This document shows, one piece after another, positions 4,650 through 14,558 of a stretch of DNA of 64,000 nucleotides; positions within the stretch are counted from its first letter, which is position 1; each line of letters opens with the position of its first letter. The position numbers were made by a program, and so were the translations under genes. Source of the stretch: Leptolyngbya boryana PCC 6306. GTDB lineage: Bacteria > Cyanobacteriota > Cyanobacteriia > Leptolyngbyales > Leptolyngbyaceae. A model generated the notes under the pieces. It did no database searches and was not told the origin of the DNA. It saw only the letters and a program-made list of their open reading frames with translations. The stretch is taken from NCBI RefSeq assembly GCF_000353285.1, contig NZ_KB731324.1, positions 5,350,577 through 5,414,576 on the forward strand, written 5' to 3'.

Positions 4650-4722
4650 AATCTTCCCTCCTTTGTAGATTTAGATTGGAGAGAGCCTTTTGTTAGCTCT
4701 AGACTGAAAGTAGAACAAGAAT

Positions 4723-4740
4723 TTGAGGATCTTGTGAAGA
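4723..4740 (-). promoter_or_regulatory. Heptamer direct repeat upstream of hsp20 (site A)
   Basis: Read along the gene: TCTTCAC-AAGA-TCCTCAA, two 7-mers 11 bases apart, ending 73 bases before the hsp20 ATG and directly abutting the nitroreductase stop codon. It differs from the consensus of the other three sites (TCCTCAC-AACT-TCCTCA) at one base of the first heptamer and in the spacer. Seven-base direct repeats with an 11-base period are typical of PhoB/OmpR-family response regulators; that link is inference. Confidence 0.6.
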
Positions 4741-5775
4741 TCAAAATTGAACTTCGTGACTACTGCGACGTGGGGTTGGCTGAGTGCTGGTACAATAGCC
4801 TAGCCATAGTAGAACTTGAGGGTATCCCTCACGGTTCAGGCTACTTTGAAGTTGAGACCGCACTTCTGGCATCTGAATCGGGGCATTGAAAAATGAGGCA
4901 ACAATGCCCAAACTTTGGGCACGCAGTAGAATTTTCTGAAGGGCTTGTCCTACATTTAGCCAATCGATTGGTGTGTCGCCATGGGTTCCTAAGACTGCGA
5001 TCGCAGAGGCACTCTGTAAAAGTTGCTCATTCTGTTTAGCAATCTGATTGCCTAAATTAAAATAGCGAGTCAGCCAAGAAAGCACAACTGTTAAGAAATC
5101 AAATCTTGGCGGCACACCTAAAGCATAAGCAGGAAGACCATCATGTCGTGGATTAGATCCAGAGTGCATCCAAGCTGAGAGTTCTTTGCGAATTTCTGGA
5201 TCTGCCATCTGTAAGCGATCAGCAAGATTGACTAAATTCAGAAGATGGGATTTTGCTTTCTGCCCTTGAACAAGATGCAACCATGCGCCTTCTTCAACTG
5301 CGATCACTTGCAACCATTGCAAAACGGTTGTAGGAATGTCCCAGGCCTCAAAGGGTCGTCGGGTCGTATGGCGTTGGGAAATTGCTTCAAACAAAGACTT
5401 CTCTTCAGCCGTTTCCTGGTTCCAACTTCCTAAACGAATCTGCGCGAGTAGATTGGGTTGATCTGAATTGGGTAACATCTGAATGTCGCCTTGATAACCA
5501 AAATGATGTAATGCTAGTCGCAAATTTAACAATGCTGCACCACAACTAATGATCAGTTCTCGATGCTCCGGATCAACATAAGACAGAGCACGATCGAGAT
5601 CTGCCCATAACTCGATTGTCTCCTGCTGAATCGTGAATTTCCAAGGTTGAGTATTGTGCCCAGAGGGTGCTAGCACAGCATAATTGAGTATGAATTGAAG
5701 TTGCTGGGTTGGACTGCCTTGCAGTGGAAAGTCTTGGTCTGAAACCTGCCACGGTTGGAGAGAGAGATGAGACAT
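4741..5775 (-). CDS. Nitroreductase-family protein, Acg-like
   Basis: 344 residues. The SGHNTQPWKF motif at 38-47 is the flavin-binding signature of the long, Acg-type nitroreductases (two nitroreductase halves in one chain, one often degenerate), and a second region near 315-330 (LLWLGY) matches the C-terminal half. Such proteins bind FMN; the mycobacterial Acg proteins are thought to store or sequester flavin rather than reduce nitro compounds. The start has GGAGTG seven bases upstream. It lies just upstream of hsp20 on the same strand and has its own copy of the heptamer repeat at 5868-5885, so both are probably induced by one regulator. Confidence 0.85.
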   Translation of the reverse strand: MSHLSLQPWQVSDQDFPLQGSPTQQLQFILNYAVLAPSGHNTQPWKFTIQQETIELWADLDRALSYVDPEHRELIISCGAALLNLRLALHHFGYQGDIQMLPNSDQPNLLAQIRLGSWNQETAEEKSLFEAISQRHTTRRPFEAWDIPTTVLQWLQVIAVEEGAWLHLVQGQKAKSHLLNLVNLADRLQMADPEIRKELSAWMHSGSNPRHDGLPAYALGVPPRFDFLTVVLSWLTRYFNLGNQIAKQNEQLLQSASAIAVLGTHGDTPIDWLNVGQALQKILLRAQSLGIVASFFNAPIQMPEVRSQLQSSLNREGYPQVLLWLGYCTSTQPTPRRSSHEVQF

Positions 5776-5867
5776 AGAATTTCACTCCAATAAATCCTGC
5801 ATTCAACAAGAAGAACAGTTCAAAGTTTCTAAGGCTGTCCTTATATGAATGGTTATAGAGAAAAATC

Positions 5868-5885
5868 GTGAGGAAGTTGTGAGGA
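5868..5885 (-). promoter_or_regulatory. Heptamer direct repeat upstream of the nitroreductase gene (site B)
   Basis: On the plus strand GTGAGGA-AGTT-GTGAGGA, so along the minus-strand gene TCCTCAC-AACT-TCCTCAC: two identical heptamers with an 11-base period, 92 bases before the nitroreductase ATG. With site C it forms a large inverted arrangement with 30 bases between the two sites. Confidence 0.7.
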
Positions 5886-5915
5886 TGATTCAGACTAATC
5901 AGATTCAGATGATGT

Positions 5916-5933
5916 TCCTCACAACTTCCTCAT
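5916..5933 (+). promoter_or_regulatory. Heptamer direct repeat upstream of the ComFB-like gene (site C)
   Basis: TCCTCAC-AACT-TCCTCAT on the plus strand, 130 bases before the ATG at 6064. It is the mirror of site B, so this divergent intergenic region carries one copy pointing at each gene. The spacer between B and C also contains GATTCAG twice. Confidence 0.7.
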
Positions 5934-6063
5934 CATTGTTCCGTATTCTGAAAGGTGCGAAAAGCTAAAGGTGCGATCCTGTTAACCTGATCGCACCAGG
6001 CGTGTTTGCATCATTTCGCAAAAACATCGCAAAAACATCCTGACTCTAGGCGAGGGATTTCCT

Positions 6064-6420
6064 ATGTCGAAAACTATCCTCAACGTCGCGCAATACCCGA
6101 TTCTGCAAGAAATCGAAAGGATCTTAGAATCGTATCCTCATCATCCTTATCAGCAGGCATTCGCTCATCCCGATCTGCAACAGCAATTAGTAGCTTGGGT
6201 TTTGAATCGAGTTCCTAATGTGTTTATTGTAACAGAGGAAACTGAAGAAGCGATCGTTCATCCAACTTATGCACCGCACTGTAGCGATCAGAAATCTTGT
6301 CTAGAATTTGTGATTCGAGAAGGGATTCAAGAGGTTCTAGCTCAGAATCAGAAAGAAATTGAGCATGATATTCCACAAGAAGAAATGCCTGGACAAGCTG
6401 CTTCGCATTGGTTTGGTTAA
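6064..6420 (+). CDS. Small ComFB-like hypothetical protein
   Basis: 118 residues, soluble, acidic towards the C-terminus. The segment LVAWVLNRVPNVF (43-55), preceded by a short Gln-rich helix, resembles the core of the ComFB (late competence) family, whose consensus is close to VAYALNRLPPLYA; cyanobacterial ComFB-like proteins have been reported to bind cyclic di-GMP. The resemblance is by eye and limited to one helix and turn, so the family is tentative. It is expressed divergently from the nitroreductase gene with its own copy of the heptamer repeat (5916-5933), which places it in the same stress set. A hairpin at 6439-6471 separates it from the next gene. Confidence 0.6.
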   Translation: MSKTILNVAQYPILQEIERILESYPHHPYQQAFAHPDLQQQLVAWVLNRVPNVFIVTEETEEAIVHPTYAPHCSDQKSCLEFVIREGIQEVLAQNQKEIEHDIPQEEMPGQAASHWFG

Positions 6421-6438
6421 GTTCAAGTGTGTCTGATG

Positions 6439-6471
6439 TTGGCAGATTTAGAAGCCATTCAAATCTGCCAA
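6439..6471 (+). terminator. Hairpin between the ComFB-like and bactofilin-like genes
   Basis: Perfect 11-bp arms TTGGCAGATTT and AAATCTGCCAA with an 11-base loop, 18 bases past the stop at 6420 and 43 bases before the next ATG. There is no clean T-run after it, so it could be a partial terminator or an mRNA processing hairpin. Confidence 0.5.
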
Positions 6472-6514
6472 TTCTAGGGCTTCTACTGTTCTTGTACCTT
6501 GAGAGAAAATTACG

Positions 6515-7378
6515 ATGAATTGGAAGCAGTGGATTCTGGTGTTTATCTCTACGATTGTGTTGCTCTTTGCGGGTCAAGCACTCGCACAAACAGACATCAA
6601 TGTGAACAACACAAATCTGATTCGATTCGGTGGAGATGTCACGGTTCAAGAAAAGCAAGTCGTCGAAAATGCTCATGCGATCGGAGGTTCTGTGATCGTG
6701 CAACCGAATGGGCGCGTCACACAAACCGCGATCTCAATTGGTGGCAATGTCACACTCAAGAAAGGGGCACGAGTCGATGGAGATGCTTATGCGATCGGCG
6801 GTAAAGTTGTGCAAGAAGAAGGGGCAACGATTGGAGGCGCAAAAGGCACATTGGGTGACGATGGCAGCATGGGAATGCATCGCGATCGTAATTCTTTCTG
6901 GGTAAGGTATGCAGCACAAAGTGCTTTTCGGATCATGAGTGCGATAATTGCTGCGATTGTTGGCGTGATTTTACTTCGCGCTGCCCCTGCATTTATGCCA
7001 AACTTAGCAGCAACGATACGGCAATATCCAAGTCAAAGTACTTTATGGGGGATTGGGTCGATTGTTGCTGTGATTGCGCTGAATATTTTCCTTGCCATTA
7101 CGCTCATCGGCATTCCTTTAATTCCGTTAGTAATTTTAATCGCGAGTCTTGCCTCTTTTGTTGGCTCATTAGGACTCTCGCTCTTGGTCGGGCAAATCGT
7201 CGTAAAGAGTGGTCAGCCCCCTCAAGTGCAACAATTTTTGATTGGATTATTGATTGTTACAGTTCTTGCCCTGATTCCCGGTCTAGGCGGGCTTGTTCTG
7301 TTTGTTGTGAGTGTATTTGGGCTAGGAGCATTGCTAGCTTGGAAAATAGGGAAGATACAACCCCACGCGATGGGATAG
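6515..7378 (+). CDS. Exported bactofilin-like beta-solenoid membrane protein
   Basis: 287 residues. Residues 1-24 form a signal peptide (hydrophobic core ending GQALA). Residues 30-115 are short imperfect repeats rich in Ile/Gly/Val (AIGGSVIVQPNGRV, SIGGNVTLKKGARV, AIGGKVVQEEGATI) that look like the triangular beta-solenoid of polymer-forming bactofilins, here outside the cytoplasm. The C-terminal half has three or four membrane segments (about 129-155, 178-230, 240-280). The role is unknown; such proteins occur widely in bacteria as polymer-forming cytoskeletal or membrane-shaping factors. It follows the ComFB-like gene by 94 bases and may be co-expressed by read-through. Confidence 0.7.
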   Translation: MNWKQWILVFISTIVLLFAGQALAQTDINVNNTNLIRFGGDVTVQEKQVVENAHAIGGSVIVQPNGRVTQTAISIGGNVTLKKGARVDGDAYAIGGKVVQEEGATIGGAKGTLGDDGSMGMHRDRNSFWVRYAAQSAFRIMSAIIAAIVGVILLRAAPAFMPNLAATIRQYPSQSTLWGIGSIVAVIALNIFLAITLIGIPLIPLVILIASLASFVGSLGLSLLVGQIVVKSGQPPQVQQFLIGLLIVTVLALIPGLGGLVLFVVSVFGLGALLAWKIGKIQPHAMG

Positions 7379-7386
7379 TTTATATC

Positions 7387-7423
7387 GAGATTGCACTGAT
7401 TCGACCTGAATCAGTGCAATCTC
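7387..7423. terminator. Bidirectional terminator between convergent genes
   Basis: Perfect 16-bp arms, GAGATTGCACTGATTC and its complement (7387-7402, 7408-7423), enclose a 5-base loop in the 46-base gap between the convergent membrane-protein and pentapeptide genes. CAGTTTTC follows on the plus strand. Confidence 0.85.
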
Positions 7424-7424
7424 A

Positions 7425-8342
7425 TCAGTTTTCACTACTGAAATCGTCAGCTTTTAATCGTTGCACATCATAATTGCGCCTTAATTCTAAAGGTTTGCGT
7501 TCGAGATTTTCATCGATCGCAATTGCACCTTGAAGCACTGCTCCGCTAAAGTTTGCATCAAGATCAGTTCCCGTCAAATCTACATCCGTTAAAATTGCAT
7601 CACTGAAGTTTGCATGACTCAATTTTACATGAGCTAAATTTGCCCCGGTCAGATTTGCGTGTTGCAAATTTGCTCGACTTAAATCTGCATGAATCAGATA
7701 AGCTCGACTGAGATTTGCTCCGCTCAGATTTGCCCCGATTAGATTCGTGTGGCTTAGATCTGCACCTGTTAAGTCCGTTCTCCGTAAATCGCTCCCTGAC
7801 AAATTTGCTTCGCCTAGATTTGCCCCTTGTAAGTTTGTCTCTGCTAAATTTACATGCTTCATGTTCGCTTGGCTGAGGTTCCCTCCGGCAAGTGATGCAC
7901 CCTTAAACGTTGTGCCTTGCAACTCGGCTTGACTCAAATTTGCTTCTGCTAAGTTTGCTTGGCTGAAATCTGCGCCACTTAGATCTGCGTGACTGAGATT
8001 CGCCCCTGCAAGGTTCGCACTGTTAAAATTGGTCGCACTGAGGTCTGCATTGAGCAGATTCGCGCCTTGTAATTCGCTGTCGGCAAAGTCTGCTCCATAA
8101 AGATGAGCATCGCTAAGATTTGCATTTGTGAGTGTTGCCTGACGAAGATCAGCGTTGATTAAGTCAGCTTCGCAGAGTTGAGCCTGATCGAGGTGAACGC
8201 CCTGTAGATTTCCACCTCTCAAGATCAAAGAATGCAGTGAAGCTTGAGAAAGATCGGGCACATAATCAGGATAAGCTTGTCTCCAAGCGTTCCAAGACTT
8301 AGCGCCTTGTTTGATCAGAATGAGTAATTGTTCGGCTACCAT
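7425..8342 (-). CDS. Pentapeptide-repeat protein
   Basis: 305 residues from the ATG at 8342, which has AGGA nine bases upstream; an upstream in-frame start at 8399 would overlap the CBS-CP12 gene and is less likely. An N-terminal helix (MVAEQLLILIKQGAKSWNAW) is followed by about 45 tandem A(D/N)Lxx pentapeptides (about 50-275) that fold as a right-handed quadrilateral beta-helix. Cyanobacteria encode many such proteins and most lack a known function. It is the last gene of the zinc-ribbon, CBS-CP12, pentapeptide run, so it may share their promoter near 9336. Confidence 0.93.
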   Translation of the reverse strand: MVAEQLLILIKQGAKSWNAWRQAYPDYVPDLSQASLHSLILRGGNLQGVHLDQAQLCEADLINADLRQATLTNANLSDAHLYGADFADSELQGANLLNADLSATNFNSANLAGANLSHADLSGADFSQANLAEANLSQAELQGTTFKGASLAGGNLSQANMKHVNLAETNLQGANLGEANLSGSDLRRTDLTGADLSHTNLIGANLSGANLSRAYLIHADLSRANLQHANLTGANLAHVKLSHANFSDAILTDVDLTGTDLDANFSGAVLQGAIAIDENLERKPLELRRNYDVQRLKADDFSSEN

Positions 8343-8386
8343 GATGATGCGTCCTGATTGGGGTTGAGCTAGAGAATCGCAATGAG

Positions 8387-9004
8387 CTATCCTCCGCACA
8401 AGTTGGTGTAGAAATCTGATGTTGGGCTTTTTGGAAACTCCTCACAATACTCTTCAAAGGTGTGTTTGAGCAGTTGATCAATGCGCTGTTCGCTCAATTC
8501 AGATTGCAAAGCGTCGACAGTCTTCCAAGCAGCGATACAGGCAGGCGATCGCGCTCCTTGCTCTGTACAAAGCTGATTTGCCTGCTGACGAGCTTGCTGC
8601 AATTCTGCTTCTAGATGCGGCTGTGAGATTGCAGGATGATGTCTCAAAAGCTCAGACACAGAAATCATGCCTACTTGCTGATCTTGGATCACAGGCGCTC
8701 TCAGCAATCGATGTTTCGCAAAGAGTTGGGCAACTTCTTCAACTGTTGCGGCTGGATCAATGACAATACAAGGTTTGGTCATGAGTTCAGCAACGAAGGT
8801 CGTCTCTAAATTTTTGCCGAGCGCGACTCCCTTATACAAGATGTCTGTTTCTGTGAGGATACCGTAACTGTCTTGCTCATTTTGTCGATCGACAATCAGC
8901 GATCGACAAGCTTGCTCTTTCATCAGTTGAACTGCTTCTGCTACAGTTGCAGTTGCTTGAATTTTGGCAGCATTCAAACTCATCAGATCAATTGCATGTA
9001 ACAT
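8387..9004 (-). CDS. CBS-domain protein with C-terminal CP12-like domain
   Basis: 205 residues. Two CBS motifs (about 5-60 and 70-125) form an adenylate-sensing Bateman module. The C-terminus (135-205) matches the CP12 core: Cys146 and Cys156 ten residues apart, SPACIAAWKTVDALQSEL resembling SPECAAAWDAVEELQAE, and a second Cys pair (187 and 203) after EEYCEEFP. CP12 is the redox-switched linker that binds GAPDH and phosphoribulokinase in the Calvin cycle. CBS-CP12 fusions are known in cyanobacteria and are thought to join energy sensing to carbon-flux control. The second cysteine spacing is wider than in classical CP12, so complex formation is uncertain. It lies 33 bases after the zinc-ribbon gene. 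Confidence 0.85.
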   Translation of the reverse strand: MLHAIDLMSLNAAKIQATATVAEAVQLMKEQACRSLIVDRQNEQDSYGILTETDILYKGVALGKNLETTFVAELMTKPCIVIDPAATVEEVAQLFAKHRLLRAPVIQDQQVGMISVSELLRHHPAISQPHLEAELQQARQQANQLCTEQGARSPACIAAWKTVDALQSELSEQRIDQLLKHTFEEYCEEFPKSPTSDFYTNLCGG

Positions 9005-9037
9005 AGAGTTCTCCTTACCGCTTTTTCAAGTCACAAG

Positions 9038-9232
9038 CTAGGCTGCGAGGTCTTGAAAATGGTCGGTTGAATTCATTTTTAACTGCTTGTTTAAAGTCGA
9101 GTGAGATGTACCTGTCAATTGACCCTCTTCAAAGTTTGGCATTTCTGCCCAGCAGGAACGACAGAGCCAGTACAGCGTACCTTGACGAATGTGACGGAGT
9201 AACAGATTAGAGCAGCAGGGACAAATAGACAT
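9038..9232 (-). CDS. Small zinc-ribbon protein
   Basis: 64 residues from the ATG at 9232 (a GTG three bases upstream is also possible); AGGA lies about ten bases upstream. Two cysteine knuckles, CPCC near residues 4-7 and CRSC near 24-27, form a probable zinc ribbon, and the rest is polar. I do not recognise a named family. It is the first gene of the CBS-CP12 operon, and the heptamer repeat at 9336-9353 lies 103 bases upstream, so it is probably induced with hsp20 and the nitroreductase. Confidence 0.7.
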   Translation of the reverse strand: MSICPCCSNLLLRHIRQGTLYWLCRSCWAEMPNFEEGQLTGTSHSTLNKQLKMNSTDHFQDLAA

Positions 9233-9335
9233 CACTCTGGATTCCTAAAATTTAATGCTATCGATCTCATTTTTTTTCAGGATCTCGATGAGATAGAAGC
9301 CTGAGGGAGAACATGATAGAGATTAGTTCTAAAAT

Positions 9336-9353
9336 TTGAGGAAGTTGTGAGGA
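9336..9353 (-). promoter_or_regulatory. Heptamer direct repeat upstream of the zinc-ribbon/CBS-CP12 operon (site D)
   Basis: On the plus strand TTGAGGA-AGTT-GTGAGGA, so along the operon TCCTCAC-AACT-TCCTCAA. Heptamers, spacer and orientation are the same as in sites B and C, 103 bases before the ATG. It is one of only four clear copies I found in 64 kb, all within 4.7-9.4 kb. Confidence 0.7.
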
Positions 9354-9465: not shown

Positions 9466-11949
9466 TTATCTCTTCGGAGTTGCACAAGTCGGTGTATCTA
9501 GAATCCTGCGCAGCTCCTTTAACAATGCTTCAGCCGTATAAGGTTTGGGTAGAAGCACATCAACACCCACACTGGAAACATCAGCTAATGTATTGTCCAG
9601 CACTAAACCGCTTGTCGCAATGACTTTGACCTCAGCATTCATTTTTTTTAAGGTGCGGATTGCCGTAAGTCCATCCATTTCCGGCATCATCAAATCCATC
9701 AAAACGACCGCAATCTCTTGATTGTGCTTGACGTAAAGTGAGATTGCTTCAAAGCCATCACTCGCCGTAAGCACTCGATAATTCTGGTCTTCTAGCATTG
9801 TTTTGGTGATATCTTGAATCGATGTTTCGTCATCGACCACTAAAATGAGTTCACCGTGTCCAGGCAGTAACTCTAGCGTCGCTGTTGAAGATGTACTCTG
9901 GTTCTTAGACGTGGGCAAATAGACCTTGAAGCAGGTTCCTTGACCGATTCGGCTATCGACCTCAATAAAGCCCGCATGGCTTTTAATGATGCCTAGCACG
10001 GTCGAAAGCCCTAAACCTGTGCCTTTACCGACTTCTTTCGTGGTGAAGAATGGATCAAAAATGCGATCGACGACTTCAGGCGGAATGCCCGTGCCCGTAT
10101 CAGAGATAGCAATCATGACATAGTCTCCTGCTTTCGCATCAAGCTGCGTCCGGGCATAGGATTCATCAATGACAACATTGCTGGCAGAAAGGGTCAAAAT
10201 TCCGCCGTCAGGCATAGCATCGCGAGCATTCACGCAGAGATTCATCAGAATCTGATGCAGTTGAGTGGGGTCGGCATAGACCAGATTGAGGCTAGAAGGG
10301 GGGAGTTCTGTGCGAATGGAGATCGATTTCGGGAAGGTGCGATTTGTAATTTCTTTAATTTCTCCAAGTAAATGAGAAATCTGGACTGCTGTGCGTCTGC
10401 CTTCAGTCCCACGCGCAAACGATAGCACTTGCTTGACTAATTCGGCTCCACGCTTCGCGTTGGATTCAGCAATTTTCAGGAGTTGCTGAGTGCGATCGTC
10501 TTCCTGGGGAAACTTCAACAACAACAGTTGAGAGGTCGCTAAAATAGGGGTCAGAATATTGTTGAGATCATGGGCAACACCGCTTGCTAGAGTTCCAATA
10601 CTCTCTAATCGTTGGGCGCGGAGGAATTGAGCTTCAAGCTGTTTTTTCTCGGTGATATCGGTATCCACGGTCAGAATCGATTTTGGCATCCCCACTTTGT
10701 CTCGCACCAGCGTCATGCGGCTCATCACCGTGATCGCCTTGCCTGACTTGGTGAATTTTTGCAGTTCTCCTTGCCATGCGCCTTGATCAAACACAACTTT
10801 CAGCGCTGTTTCAAACTCTTGAGGCTGAAGATTGTGGAGCAGTTCAGTTGCATCCTTTTCCTGGATTTCGGCTTGTGACCAGCCATAGAGCTGTTCTGCT
10901 GCATGATTCCAAAACAGAATGTGATTGGCAAAGTCACGAGCGTAGATAGCGTCTGATGCTTCGTTTAATAACGCAGCCTGCTCTCGAACCATTTGCTCTG
11001 CTCGCTGACGCTCGATCAGTTCATTTTGTGTTCGCTCATAGAGTTCCGACTGTTGGATTGCAATTCCCAGTTGGGTTGCTAATTGCTGGAGGAGCGTTGT
11101 TTCGATCATTTGCCATTCATGTGTTCCTGAGCAATGATGCGCGATCAGCAGTCCCCAGATATGATTGTTTTGGAGAATTGGGACGACTAAGTTGGCTCGA
11201 ACTTGGGCTTGCTCTAATAGCTCAATATGACAAGGACTTAAGCCTGCATTGTAGATATCAGACTTAGCACTGGTTTGACCTTGCTGATAGCGCTGAAGAT
11301 AGTGCTCTTTAAAGCACGGATCATAAAACTCAACTGCAAGTACCGATTTCCAGGCAGGATCAACGGATTCATTGACAATTTTTCCACTGAAATCTGAATT
11401 AAAGCGAAAAATCACAACGCGATCGGTGTGCAAAAATCGCCGTACTTGATCGACCGTGGATTGTAAAATCTCATCGAGCTTGAGCGATCGCCGAATGCCT
11501 TGAGCGATTTCTCCGATTAAATGTTCTTGTTCGATTTGGTGCTGAAGTTGTTTCGTTAAGTTTTGTAGCCGCAGTTGCAGTTTGACGCGAGCAATCACTT
11601 CCTCACACTGCAAAGGTTTGGTGATGAAATCAACCGCGCCCAGGTCAAACCCGTGCACCTTGTCTACGACATCCGTGAGAGCTGTGAGAAAAATAATCGG
11701 AATCTCGCGTGTTGCTTCGTTAGCTTTGAGACGGCGGCAGGTTTCAAAGCCATCGATTCCCGGCATGAGCACATCCAGCAAAATCAAATCCGGATGGGCA
11801 TAGTTAGCTTTGTCGATCGCGCTTTCGCCGTCTTCTGCGACTAAAACCCGAAAGCCGGAATTTCCCAGCAAATCAAACAGCACTTCCAGGTTCGTGGGCG
11901 TGTCATCCACCACTAATATGATTCCTTGCTCAGATGTTTTAGGCTCCAT
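9466..11949 (-). CDS. Hybrid histidine kinase REC-GAF-PAS-HisKA-HATPase-REC with cyanobacteriochrome-like GAF
   Basis: 827 residues, cytoplasmic. Domains in order: receiver (10-125, Asp59), GAF (about 145-302), PAS (about 322-435), HisKA with His460 in GVAHDLNNIL, HATPase_c (about 555-680) and a second receiver (701-815, Asp752). The GAF domain has cyanobacteriochrome hallmarks: a CH pair at Cys240-His241 in LSPCHIELL, the VRANLVVPIL and WGLLIAHHC strands, and DPCF at 210-213 with Cys212, 28 residues before Cys240. That pattern fits the DXCF class, which attaches a bilin through two cysteines and senses blue/green light. The start lies two bases after the stop of the preceding kinase gene, so the two are translationally linked. 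Phospho-transfer partners are not visible. Confidence 0.93.
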   Translation of the reverse strand: MEPKTSEQGIILVVDDTPTNLEVLFDLLGNSGFRVLVAEDGESAIDKANYAHPDLILLDVLMPGIDGFETCRRLKANEATREIPIIFLTALTDVVDKVHGFDLGAVDFITKPLQCEEVIARVKLQLRLQNLTKQLQHQIEQEHLIGEIAQGIRRSLKLDEILQSTVDQVRRFLHTDRVVIFRFNSDFSGKIVNESVDPAWKSVLAVEFYDPCFKEHYLQRYQQGQTSAKSDIYNAGLSPCHIELLEQAQVRANLVVPILQNNHIWGLLIAHHCSGTHEWQMIETTLLQQLATQLGIAIQQSELYERTQNELIERQRAEQMVREQAALLNEASDAIYARDFANHILFWNHAAEQLYGWSQAEIQEKDATELLHNLQPQEFETALKVVFDQGAWQGELQKFTKSGKAITVMSRMTLVRDKVGMPKSILTVDTDITEKKQLEAQFLRAQRLESIGTLASGVAHDLNNILTPILATSQLLLLKFPQEDDRTQQLLKIAESNAKRGAELVKQVLSFARGTEGRRTAVQISHLLGEIKEITNRTFPKSISIRTELPPSSLNLVYADPTQLHQILMNLCVNARDAMPDGGILTLSASNVVIDESYARTQLDAKAGDYVMIAISDTGTGIPPEVVDRIFDPFFTTKEVGKGTGLGLSTVLGIIKSHAGFIEVDSRIGQGTCFKVYLPTSKNQSTSSTATLELLPGHGELILVVDDETSIQDITKTMLEDQNYRVLTASDGFEAISLYVKHNQEIAVVLMDLMMPEMDGLTAIRTLKKMNAEVKVIATSGLVLDNTLADVSSVGVDVLLPKPYTAEALLKELRRILDTPTCATPKR

Positions 11950-11951
11950 AG

Positions 11952-14558
11952 CTACCCCTGATAGCGTTTGATTAATTCCAAAATTTGCCGTTCCTTAAAT
12001 CCCTGCGCCAAGCGTCGAAGCTGAACGACGAACGGTTCCCATTCAGGGTTTTGTTGCTCTAGATGAGTAGCTTGCTCAAGAATTCCTTTGAGATCGCCCA
12101 TGCGGGCAAGATCGAAGAGTGTATTGAGTTCGGCATGAGGTGGAGCAACAATTGGGTCTAAAGCATTTTCAGAGACAGTATGCTCTCTAGAAGTCTCAAT
12201 TTCAGCTTCATAGTGCCACTCTAAATCGAGATGGGTTTGGAGTTGTGCGAGCAGTTCGGTTTCTCGAATTGGCTTGGCAATAAAGCCATTGCACCCTGAA
12301 TCATGACTGGCTTGCTGATCGTATCCAAAAACACTAGCAGATGTCGCAATGACGATCGTATCTCGTAAATCTGGAGATTGCCGAATTTGGCGCACTGCCT
12401 CGAATCCGTCCATCACGGGCATCACCAGATCGAGCAAGATCGCATCGGGTTTGTTCTGATGGGCTTCACGAAGTGCGACTTGACCGTTTTCGGCTTCGAT
12501 GACGTTAAATCCTAGCGGTTCTAGCAGATGAACGAGAACTGATCGGTTCGCCGCTTGATCATCGACGACAAGAACGCTGCGAGGTCTGCCTGCATAGCCA
12601 ACTACGGCACATGGAGAAGCAGTGCTCGGATCGGCACTCCGCGATCGTGCTTCTACTTCTGGCAAAACTAAGTCAAACCAGAATGTGCTACCTTTTCCGA
12701 GCGTACTGTTCACATGAATCTCCGAACCCATGATTTTCAGGAGTTGACTGCTAATCGAAAGCCCTAATCCGGTGCCTTCCGTTTTACGATCGGATTCTCC
12801 CACCTGTTGAAATGGCGAAAAAATCGCTTCTAACTGCTCTGGCGCAATGCCAATCCCGGTATCTTGTATCTCAAAGCGAACTTTTGTATTTTCAATGCAC
12901 CCTACTTGAAATAAAACGCTGCCAACTTCGGTGAATTTGACCGCATTTCCTAAAATATTAAGTAAAATTTGCCGCAAGCGTTTTTCATCTGCATAAACAT
13001 ATTGAGGCAAGGGCAATCGCGGTTGATAAATCAAGGTGATCTGTCTTTGTTCGGCGCGAATTTGGCAGATATCCGCGATCGCTTCGAGAAAGGATGGAAA
13101 ATGAAACTTCTGAGGGACAAGCTCCATTTTCTCAGCTTCAATTTTAGATAAATCGAGTAAATCGTTGATCAGCGTCAGCAGATGCTCTCCACATTGATGA
13201 ATGATGCCGACTCCTTTTTTCTGAAATTCGTTGAGACTTCGATCTTTTTCTAAAATCTGCGCGTAGCCGAGAATGCCATTGAGCGGGGTGCGGATCTCAT
13301 GGCTCATATTCGCTAAAAATTCGCTTTTCGCACGGGTTGCTGATTCTGCAAGTTCGCGCGCGGTTTGCATCGCGAGTTCTGCCTGCTTGCGCTCGGTAAT
13401 GTTGTCGAGTACCCAGAGGCGACCAGGCACATCTCGCCCATCGGTTGGTGTACTTGAAAGGCTTAATACGATTGGCTGCGGATCACTCAAAAACCAGTGC
13501 CAGTCTCGAATTTTTGCGCCAGGTTGTGTGAATAGCTCGGCTGCTTGGGCGGCAATTTCAGCTTGATTGTCTGCTTTCAGGCGCAGAGCAACCATTGCTT
13601 GCGCGATCGCGCTCGGCTCAACTGCACCATGCGCTAGATTCAGATACTTCGCTGCGGTGTGATTGATCCACCCTTGTTCGCCGCTTTCATCGATAAAGAC
13701 AATGCCTTGAGGAATTGTTTCTAACATGGCTTCAAATCGCGCTTGGAGTTGATCAAAGCGCAGTGTTAGATCTTGAAACCTAAGCAGATTGCCTAGTCCG
13801 CCCCGCAAAGAGTCGAGAAATTGTTGCAGCGATCGAGAGGGATTTATCCGCTGATGCCACAGGAGCACAATTGCTCCCTGTACGTTCTCAACCTGCTGTA
13901 ACGGTAAGACAGCGATTGATCGAACGCCTTGCGCTAGGAGAGCAGGTGAGGCTTGCGGGGTCGAAGCATAGTCTGAGTAGTGCAGACATTGATTTTGGCT
14001 GAGTGCTTCTGCAAACAACATTGGCGTTGTCAGTCGATCCGGTAGGATATTATGCGGTAATGCAGCTAGTGCTTCAGCGGTGACTTCATCTAACTGGCGG
14101 AGCGCGATCGCGCCTGTTGCACCCGTAATTTTTTTGAGCGCAGTTAATGCCTGCTGAATCGCGTGTTCTGGTGTGAGGGCAGTTTCATCTTGAATGAGCG
14201 ATGCCAGCATGGCTTGAGATGCCTGCTGCCATTCTTGTCGTAACAGATAGACTCTCACTCCAGATCCCAAGAGACCTACAATTCCTAATGCGATCGCAGA
14301 TCGGATGGGAATGTCGCGGTTTAACAAAGCGACAAAACCGAGTCCGCTCATCCACTGCGATCGCGGACATACAACGCAAAGTGCAAACAAAACCGGAGCG
14401 ACCAGCCACACTAGAGGCGCTTGTATCAGCGCTCCTAACCCTAACTCTGCCAACATCAGCATGAAAATCAACGGCGCAAACGTGGGTAGCCAATCAGGAT
14501 GTTGATTAGCGCAAAACGCAACTGGATCAGAATCGAAGCGATTTAAACGATAAAACAT
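11952..14558 (-). CDS. Membrane hybrid histidine kinase, GAF-PAS-HisKA-HATPase-REC
   Basis: 868 residues. Three or four N-terminal membrane segments (about 27-105), a GAF-like domain (about 125-265), PAS (about 275-392), HisKA with His420 in [12 protein letters not shown], HATPase_c (about 520-635), a receiver (661-778, Asp710, Lys762) and a short helical C-terminal tail seen in many cyanobacterial hybrid kinases. The GAF lacks the CH chromophore motif, so it is probably not a photoreceptor and may bind a small ligand. Its start overlaps the end of the RsbQ-like hydrolase gene by 16 bases, which strongly suggests the two act together, with the hydrolase possibly delivering a signal to the GAF or PAS domain. 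Confidence 0.93.

Follow-up and report, generated by a model that had tools for sequence, protein, structure and literature searches.

A PhoB-type direct repeat ahead of anaerobic and stress genes in cyanobacteria, and its candidate response regulator

The PHO box consists of two direct units of 11 nt (seven conserved and four less conserved positions) on which OmpR/PhoB-type proteins bind head-to-tail (PMC4415409; this and the other papers cited by PMC number were available in part). We analyzed a direct repeat of equal layout, TCCTCAC-N4-TCCTCA, which a first-pass annotation had noticed at four promoters in a 64,000-nucleotide stretch of the Leptolyngbya boryana PCC 6306 genome (contig NZ_KB731324.1, positions 5,350,577 to 5,414,576; hereafter the window). 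Here too the repeat takes the -35 place, 11 bp before the -10, but its sequence differs from the E. coli core CTGTCAT (PMC4415409). Its targets are anaerobic and stress genes, not those of the Pho regulon, and no phosphate genes were found in the recurring target families among the matches listed. Judged from sequence, the repeats are probably the operators of one OmpR/PhoB-class cyanobacterial activator, of a receiver-winged helix-turn-helix (wHTH)-Hpt clade, that would serve the response to anoxia, fermentation or over-reduction.

The DosR dormancy regulon of mycobacteria resembles this gene set in Hsp20, UspA, a nitroreductase, a CBS protein, a cation ATPase nearby and the logic of hypoxia and dormancy. 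DosR itself is of the NarL/LuxR type and its box is palindromic, whereas a direct repeat and a Trans_reg_C regulator are found here. FNR/CRP-type anaerobic regulons use a palindromic box of the FNR type, which is absent from the consensus of our 74 aligned sites, where a direct repeat stands instead. Within cyanobacteria, the MarR-type activator ChlR likewise acts at low oxygen, but through the palindrome TTMCC-N3/4-GGWAA and an Fe-S sensor, and on a single small tetrapyrrole operon (PMC13421787). Control of hox and nifJ, target genes in common with the present sites, has been attributed to CyAbrB1/2, LexA, SigE, Rre34 and RpaA, for none of which the available parts of the sources describe this direct repeat (PMC13421787, PMC11368403, PMC3091678). 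The Nostoc LexA box at hox promoters is a pseudo-palindrome, RGTACNNNDGTWCB (PMC3091678), a form not seen in the consensus of the 74 sites, and CyAbrB2 is a nucleoid protein. For functions of this kind, a 2026 review of cyanobacterial redox regulation names CyAbrB1/2, RpaA and ChlR, and its main text, as far as available, does not use the term 'direct repeat' (PMC13421787). Searches of open-licence PMC papers listed no report of this box.

All four window copies lie where the first-pass annotation had placed them, three matching TCCTCAC-N4-TCCTCA exactly and one with a single mismatch, and each is directed toward its gene (Table 1). They do stand upstream of the start codons, but the coordinates give distances of 74–131 bp in place of the 73–130 bases noted then. 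The window was also said to hold no further clear copy, and indeed the remaining 8 of the 12 matches at up to three mismatches each carried three; the total of 12 was not above chance, shuffles giving a mean of 17.7. Overlooked at that stage was a -10-like hexamer exactly 11 bp downstream of all four repeats.

Across the 7.26-Mb genome of the same strain (G000), with the pattern read backwards as the control, TCCTCAC-N4-TCCTCA was found in 13 exact copies and another 13 with one mismatch, the four of the window included. At up to two mismatches this loose form gave 205 copies versus 128 for the reversed pattern, so chance accounts for most matches of this kind. The refined pattern TCCTCACAASTTCCTCA gave 73 versus 34 at up to three mismatches, and the extended pattern TCCTCACAASTTCCTCA-N11-TANNNT gave 27 versus 1 at the same threshold. 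In the placement test, which left out the extended sites at C1:4226624 and C3:295504, 24 of 25 were intergenic and the remaining one lay inside a 60-aa open reading frame (ORF) that is probably no gene; the -10 ended 5–211 bp ahead of a same-strand gene at all 25. Many random copies within genes, which the first-pass annotation had named as a warning sign, are thus not what the extended sites show. Genes of this genome do contain several of the looser copies that lack the -10. Intragenic matches with two or three mismatches and no -10 (e.g. C1:480201, 1038361, 2343519) were taken as chance, as were some one-mismatch copies of the loose form (e.g. 2475655, 5790941, 5970775).

An alignment of 74 non-identical sites showed a same-orientation repeat with an 11-bp period (TCCTCAC at 0, TCCTCA at +11), followed 11 bp downstream by T in 66 sites and A in 69, with T four bases further in 54. 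The spacing was also evident at loci that had not been selected for a TANNNT box: among 73 sites with at most one mismatch, TANNNT stood at offset 11 in 45 and TA alone in 68, while TANNNT reached at most 6 at any other offset and at most 4 in the upstream control. We infer that the offset-11 TANNNT is the working -10. The alignment supports a repeat in the -35 position at a fixed distance from the -10, as at PhoB-type promoters, and this fixed distance suggests an activator-type site. The PhoB/OmpR-type reading of the first-pass annotation was borne out by the 11-bp direct repeat in the -35 place together with a genetically tied candidate regulator of that type. A short motif with such reversed counts in the two less strict searches could also be chance or a functionless dispersed repeat element. 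This is scarcely credible in view of the intergenic placement, the fixed -10 spacing, the recurring functional targets, and a flank upstream of the repeat that is hardly conserved as against the conserved repeat, the stretch following it and the -10.

Among the relatives, at up to one mismatch, the motif was found in 24 of 58 genomes including that of the window (23 of the 57 others), with 1 for the reversed control. In a sample of the phylum it was found in 51 of 386 genomes (reversed control, 5), of which 32 belonged to family f28, 4 to the window's family f1 and 9 to other families of the class. The remaining 6 were from other classes with one copy each, which we take as chance. Two loci of family f28 were identical over at least 4 kb to Nostocales records (Rivularia, Cylindrospermum). 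When the GTDB collection was scanned for exact matches to the 17-mer with TANNNT, at least 118 stretches were returned; among the matches listed all were cyanobacterial (117 assigned to Cyanobacteriota and 1 titled filamentous cyanobacterium), at least 81 being Nostocales and at least 13 Leptolyngbyales. The small local regulon of four stress genes that the first-pass annotation had proposed, which would fit a 64-kb window with no other clear copy, is refuted by the 26 genomic copies at up to one mismatch, the 27 extended sites and the spread over relatives and many cyanobacterial orders; we give it next to no probability. Whether relatives lose the motif while keeping the genes, another warning sign named at that time, has a divided answer for CBS-CP12: its sole close homolog in the 57 other genomes (G014, 75%) has a site about 300 bp upstream, but distant homologs (39–50%) are present in motif-free genomes too.

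A gene lay within 450 bp of 204 of 249 sites. Among the matches listed, the largest clusters of first genes were zinc ribbon (18), Hsp20 (16) and UspA (14), followed by phosphofructokinase (PFK, 10), phosphoenolpyruvate (PEP) synthase (9), NifJ (9), hydrogenase maturation protease (8), a TIGR01244-like sulfur transferase (6), HoxE, a pentapeptide protein and a psbA-family protein (5 each), radical-SAM activases (3) and pyruvate formate-lyase (PFL, 2), with others besides. Within a DNA-selected set of 122 sites from named records (101 with a gene in reach, 21 without), the first gene belonged to one of 16 recurring families, picked after viewing, at 58 of the 101 sites and the operon at 67, compared with 4 of 131 genes, all psbA-like, in 20 unlinked control loci. 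NCBIfam models confirmed HoxE, HoxU, NifJ, PEP synthase, pyruvate dehydrogenase (PDH) E1-alpha, the maturation protease and PFK (subfamily model) above their cut-offs, and Pfam confirmed Usp, Hsp20, the NiFe hydrogenase large subunit and a NorB-type oxidase. Matches below the NCBIfam cut-offs were obtained for PFL, of which the sequence is partial, the L096 activase, for which NrdG was best, the acetate-CoA ligase, psbA, the sulfur transferase, the ribosome hibernation factor and, in the window's genome, the group-3b-like hydrogenase. HoxH (L152) was not confirmed beyond a general NiFe hydrogenase match, and HoxF (L168), with NuoF-type matches, was named through gene order and similarity.

The targets in the window's genome comprised genes beside a hydrogenase/hyp cluster, an operon of an AMP-binding enzyme and PDH, PFK, PEP synthase, UspA, Hsp20, a sigma factor, a pyridoxamine-oxidase-like protein and an ABC exporter. 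In three psbA-type targets, read over their whole length, E333 is replaced by A and D342 by V or I, and the C-terminus is altered. By what we take to be the standard D1 sequence and numbering, they would be rogue (sentinel) D1 forms, presumably without the usual C-terminal ligands of the Mn cluster; such genes follow a site in Nostocales at L095:2353-3423 (-), L157 and L180. The regulon has a core of anaerobic and fermentative metabolism plus a stress and dormancy set, and we read it as serving anoxia and fermentation (or over-reduction) in Nostocales and many other cyanobacteria. Two further gene contexts were seen. In the window's genome, a gene run that follows a site-linked gene (L015:5710-10949) holds the group-3b-like NiFe hydrogenase and a small protein that by its look is putatively of the cyclic-nucleotide-binding type. 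In one cyanobacterial record, a NorB-type nitric oxide reductase/oxidase gene (L183:1222-3537 (+)) follows an exact site.

The best candidate for the regulator is encoded outside the window (G000:C1:434753-437173), an 806-aa OmpR/PhoB-type multidomain response regulator with a receiver, Trans_reg_C, Hpt, two receivers and GGDEF. Response_reg and Trans_reg_C were present in it and in 7 of 7 scanned homologs, all of which also carried PAS and histidine kinase domains and one a GAF. Exact sites flank the candidate gene on both sides, one for hsp20 and the other for a divergent Germane-domain gene. A site was found within 1 kb of 18 of the 30 top-scoring regulator loci and in none of 20 paralog loci, which were chosen by the analyst from motif-bearing genomes and in 14 of which the script identified the paralog gene. 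The 30 loci omit 7 of the 37 fetched, with a site within 1 kb at L058, L077 and L212 and none at L075, L076, L211 and L213, so that the count becomes 21 of 37 when they are included. A quick tree of 42 rows, from which several top loci (e.g. L196, L198, L199) are absent, placed the 26 labelled rows and L058 on one side of a branch with an SH-aLRT of 97.

Gene order at these loci adds to the linkage. In 10 of the 17 loci holding the regulator gene, its divergent side carries a site and a UspA gene; HoxE-HoxF comes next in 5 of them, HoxF without HoxE in 1 and a maturation protease in 1, with an intervening gene in L211. The order UspA-HoxE-HoxF resembles alr0750-hoxE-hoxF of Nostoc PCC 7120 (PMC3091678). 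As a separate observation, the regulator gene is often followed by a gene for a CheY-like receiver of 126–136 aa (L196-L209, e.g. L198:8044-8430), which may belong to the relay. A regulator paralog on the 413-kb contig C3 of the window's genome (L058:4060-6447 (+)) is followed by a three-mismatch site with a -10 (6505-6521), a UspA-like gene and then a metal-ATPase-like gene.

The regulator and the motif also co-occurred. The motif was present in 15 of 15 other relatives with a regulator match at E ≤ 1e-100 and in 29 of 29 other genomes of the phylum sample with a best E-value ≤ 1e-95. In family f28 (n = 42), 22 genomes had match and motif, none the match alone, 10 the motif alone and 10 neither. 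The co-occurrence table covers the 57 relatives and the 42 f28 genomes, which are non-independent, leaving out the other families of the phylum sample. The phylum search scored 5 candidates per genome and the relatives search up to 36; ten other genomes with a match in both searches had identical best E-values. Of the other genomes in the window's genus, three combine the motif with a strong ortholog and G001, G003 and G006 have neither; G002 (1060 contigs) has a single site and lacks a strong ortholog. The most likely regulator belongs to the multidomain response-regulator clade that begins with receiver, wHTH (Trans_reg_C) and Hpt.

Several observations weigh against this assignment. The sites beside the candidate in the window's genome are directed at its neighbours and not at the candidate itself, so that autoregulation lacks support there, and 12 of the 30 top regulator loci have no site within 2 kb. 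Eight of the 23 motif-bearing relatives have no match at E ≤ 1e-100, and at E ≤ 1e-95 the motif-free relatives G003 and G047 also have matches, although a two-mismatch site adjoins the G003 gene (7.2e-98). G123 and G176, with 6 and 3 sites, have only weak matches (1.4e-85 and 1.6e-73). On the tree, the label 'site within 1 kb' requires 10 changes, and a 599-aa paralog with an adjoining site (L010) is placed outside the clade, its branch being very long and its position unsure. As for the targets, only 1 of 9 PEP synthase sites has a full TANNNT. Finally, the expression support in the literature, a joint drop of ppsA, the hox clusters and nifJ (107-, 74- and 42-fold) in Nostoc PCC 7120 upon transfer from 3% to low CO2, is indirect; the drop was driven by the CO2 level, not oxygen (PMC7699953).

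Some of these points would suit a real regulon under a different OmpR/PhoB paralog, or under several that share a near-identical recognition helix. Such hybrids are numerous in cyanobacteria (the window's genome by itself gave 11 matches at E ≤ 1e-60), the paralogs resemble one another in the recognition-helix region, L010 has its own adjoining site and some motif-bearing genomes have no strong ortholog. We regard this as unlikely, given the absence of any site from the 20 paralog loci, the single clade of site-linked genes with L010 apart, and the strong co-occurrence with the named clade.

The target genes make anoxia, dark fermentation or over-reduction the most likely input to the proposed activator. 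The signal may instead be carbon excess, over-reduction of the electron-transport chain, night or general energy stress, a possibility to be taken seriously if a doubtful one. Since the Nostoc experiment varied CO2, oxygen still competes with redox or carbon excess as the signal; the authors of that study suggested LexA or cyAbrB as possible causes of the hox drop (PMC7699953). Hsp20, UspA and the ribosome-hibernation-factor-like protein (below cut-off) are moreover general stress and dormancy genes, but the recurrence downstream of enzymes characteristic of anaerobic metabolism (PFL, NifJ, hydrogenase), radical-SAM activases and rogue-type D1 is best fitted by anoxia.

Under the preferred reading of one activator from the receiver-wHTH-Hpt clade, for which DNA binding, activation and signal are all inferred, two protomers would bind head-to-tail to the 11-bp units TCCTCACAAST and TCCTCAaAttt, the predicted operator of the receiver-wHTH protein being TCCTCACAAGTTCCTCA. 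The bound repeat would replace the -35 element 11 bp upstream of the TANNNT -10 and recruit RNA polymerase. The regulator would start with receiver, wHTH and Hpt, to which the window's genome adds two receivers and GGDEF. Many Nostocales have it fused to PAS and histidine-kinase domains. The Hpt and the extra receivers suggest a phosphorelay. The response would switch on hydrogenase, pyruvate:ferredoxin oxidoreductase, PFL, PEP synthase, PFK, UspA, Hsp20, CBS-CP12 and rogue D1. A bolder proposal, to which we give slightly less than an even chance, is a general anaerobic-response regulon, a functional counterpart of FNR and DosR on a PhoB-type operator. Its master regulator would be a DNA-binding hybrid phosphorelay protein, with its own PAS/kinase sensor in Nostocales. 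It would couple fermentation, H2 metabolism, shutdown of the Calvin cycle through CBS-CP12 and a swap of D1 for a form without water-oxidation ligands, halting oxygen production in the anaerobic cell.

If true, one exactly spaced common operator with a named candidate regulator would give, for Nostocales and Leptolyngbya-type strains, one testable explanation of how hydrogenase and fermentation genes are induced, and would point to a master regulator of the cyanobacterial anoxia response that has had no name until now. The pair could account for the joint ppsA, hox and nifJ change in Nostoc PCC 7120, tie rogue D1 and CBS-CP12 to anoxia and offer a handle for H2 production.

Table 1. Predicted operators, -10-like hexamers and downstream genes in the window (positions are those of the window)
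Feature	Position	Strand	Remarks
Predicted direct-repeat operator TCTTCACAAGATCCTCA, hsp20 promoter	4724..4740	-	1 mismatch to TCCTCAC-N4-TCCTCA; part of extended site
-10-like TACTTT, hsp20	4707..4712	-	11 bp after repeat; extended site G000:C1:5355283-5355316
Hsp20 small heat-shock protein, 152 aa	4191..4649	-	PF00011 4.3e-22; ATG 4649, site 74 bp upstream
Predicted operator TCCTCACAACTTCCTCA, nitroreductase promoter	5869..5885	-	exact match
-10-like TATAAC, nitroreductase	5852..5857	-	11 bp after repeat; last base off TANNNT
Nitroreductase-family protein, 344 aa	4741..5775	-	PF00881 5.5e-10, PF14512 4.6e-8; ATG 5775, site 93 bp upstream
Predicted operator TCCTCACAACTTCCTCA, ComFB-like promoter	5916..5932	+	exact match
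-10-like TATTCT, ComFB-like gene	5944..5949	+	11 bp after repeat; 0 mismatches to extended pattern
ComFB-like protein, 118 aa	6064..6420	+	ComFB 2.8e-4, below Pfam cut-off; ATG 6064, site 131 bp upstream
Predicted operator TCCTCACAACTTCCTCA, zinc-ribbon/CBS-CP12 promoter	9337..9353	-	exact match
-10-like TAATCT, zinc ribbon	9320..9325	-	11 bp after repeat; 0 mismatches to extended pattern
Small zinc-ribbon-like protein	9038..9235	-	ORF with CxxC pairs; ATG 9232, site 104 bp upstream
CBS-CP12 protein, 205 aa	8387..9004	-	PF00571, PF02672; second gene, after zinc ribbon

The zinc-ribbon-like protein gave no match in the Pfam scan and is named from its cysteine pattern, and 3 of 6 ComFB-like homologs in other genomes were site-linked at the fetched loci. 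Two hybrid histidine kinases are encoded at 9466-14558 (-) of the window, the first composed of receiver, GAF, PAS, kinase and receiver, with an SPCHIELL stretch in the GAF presumably reminiscent of bilin-binding cyanobacteriochromes. We considered them as the sensor and set them aside, as a site was upstream of 1 of 30 homologs of the first and 0 of 8 of the second at the fetched loci. A long pentapeptide-repeat protein (7425-8399 (-)) adjoins the CBS-CP12 operon, and this neighbour is retained in G014 (L235, 72%).

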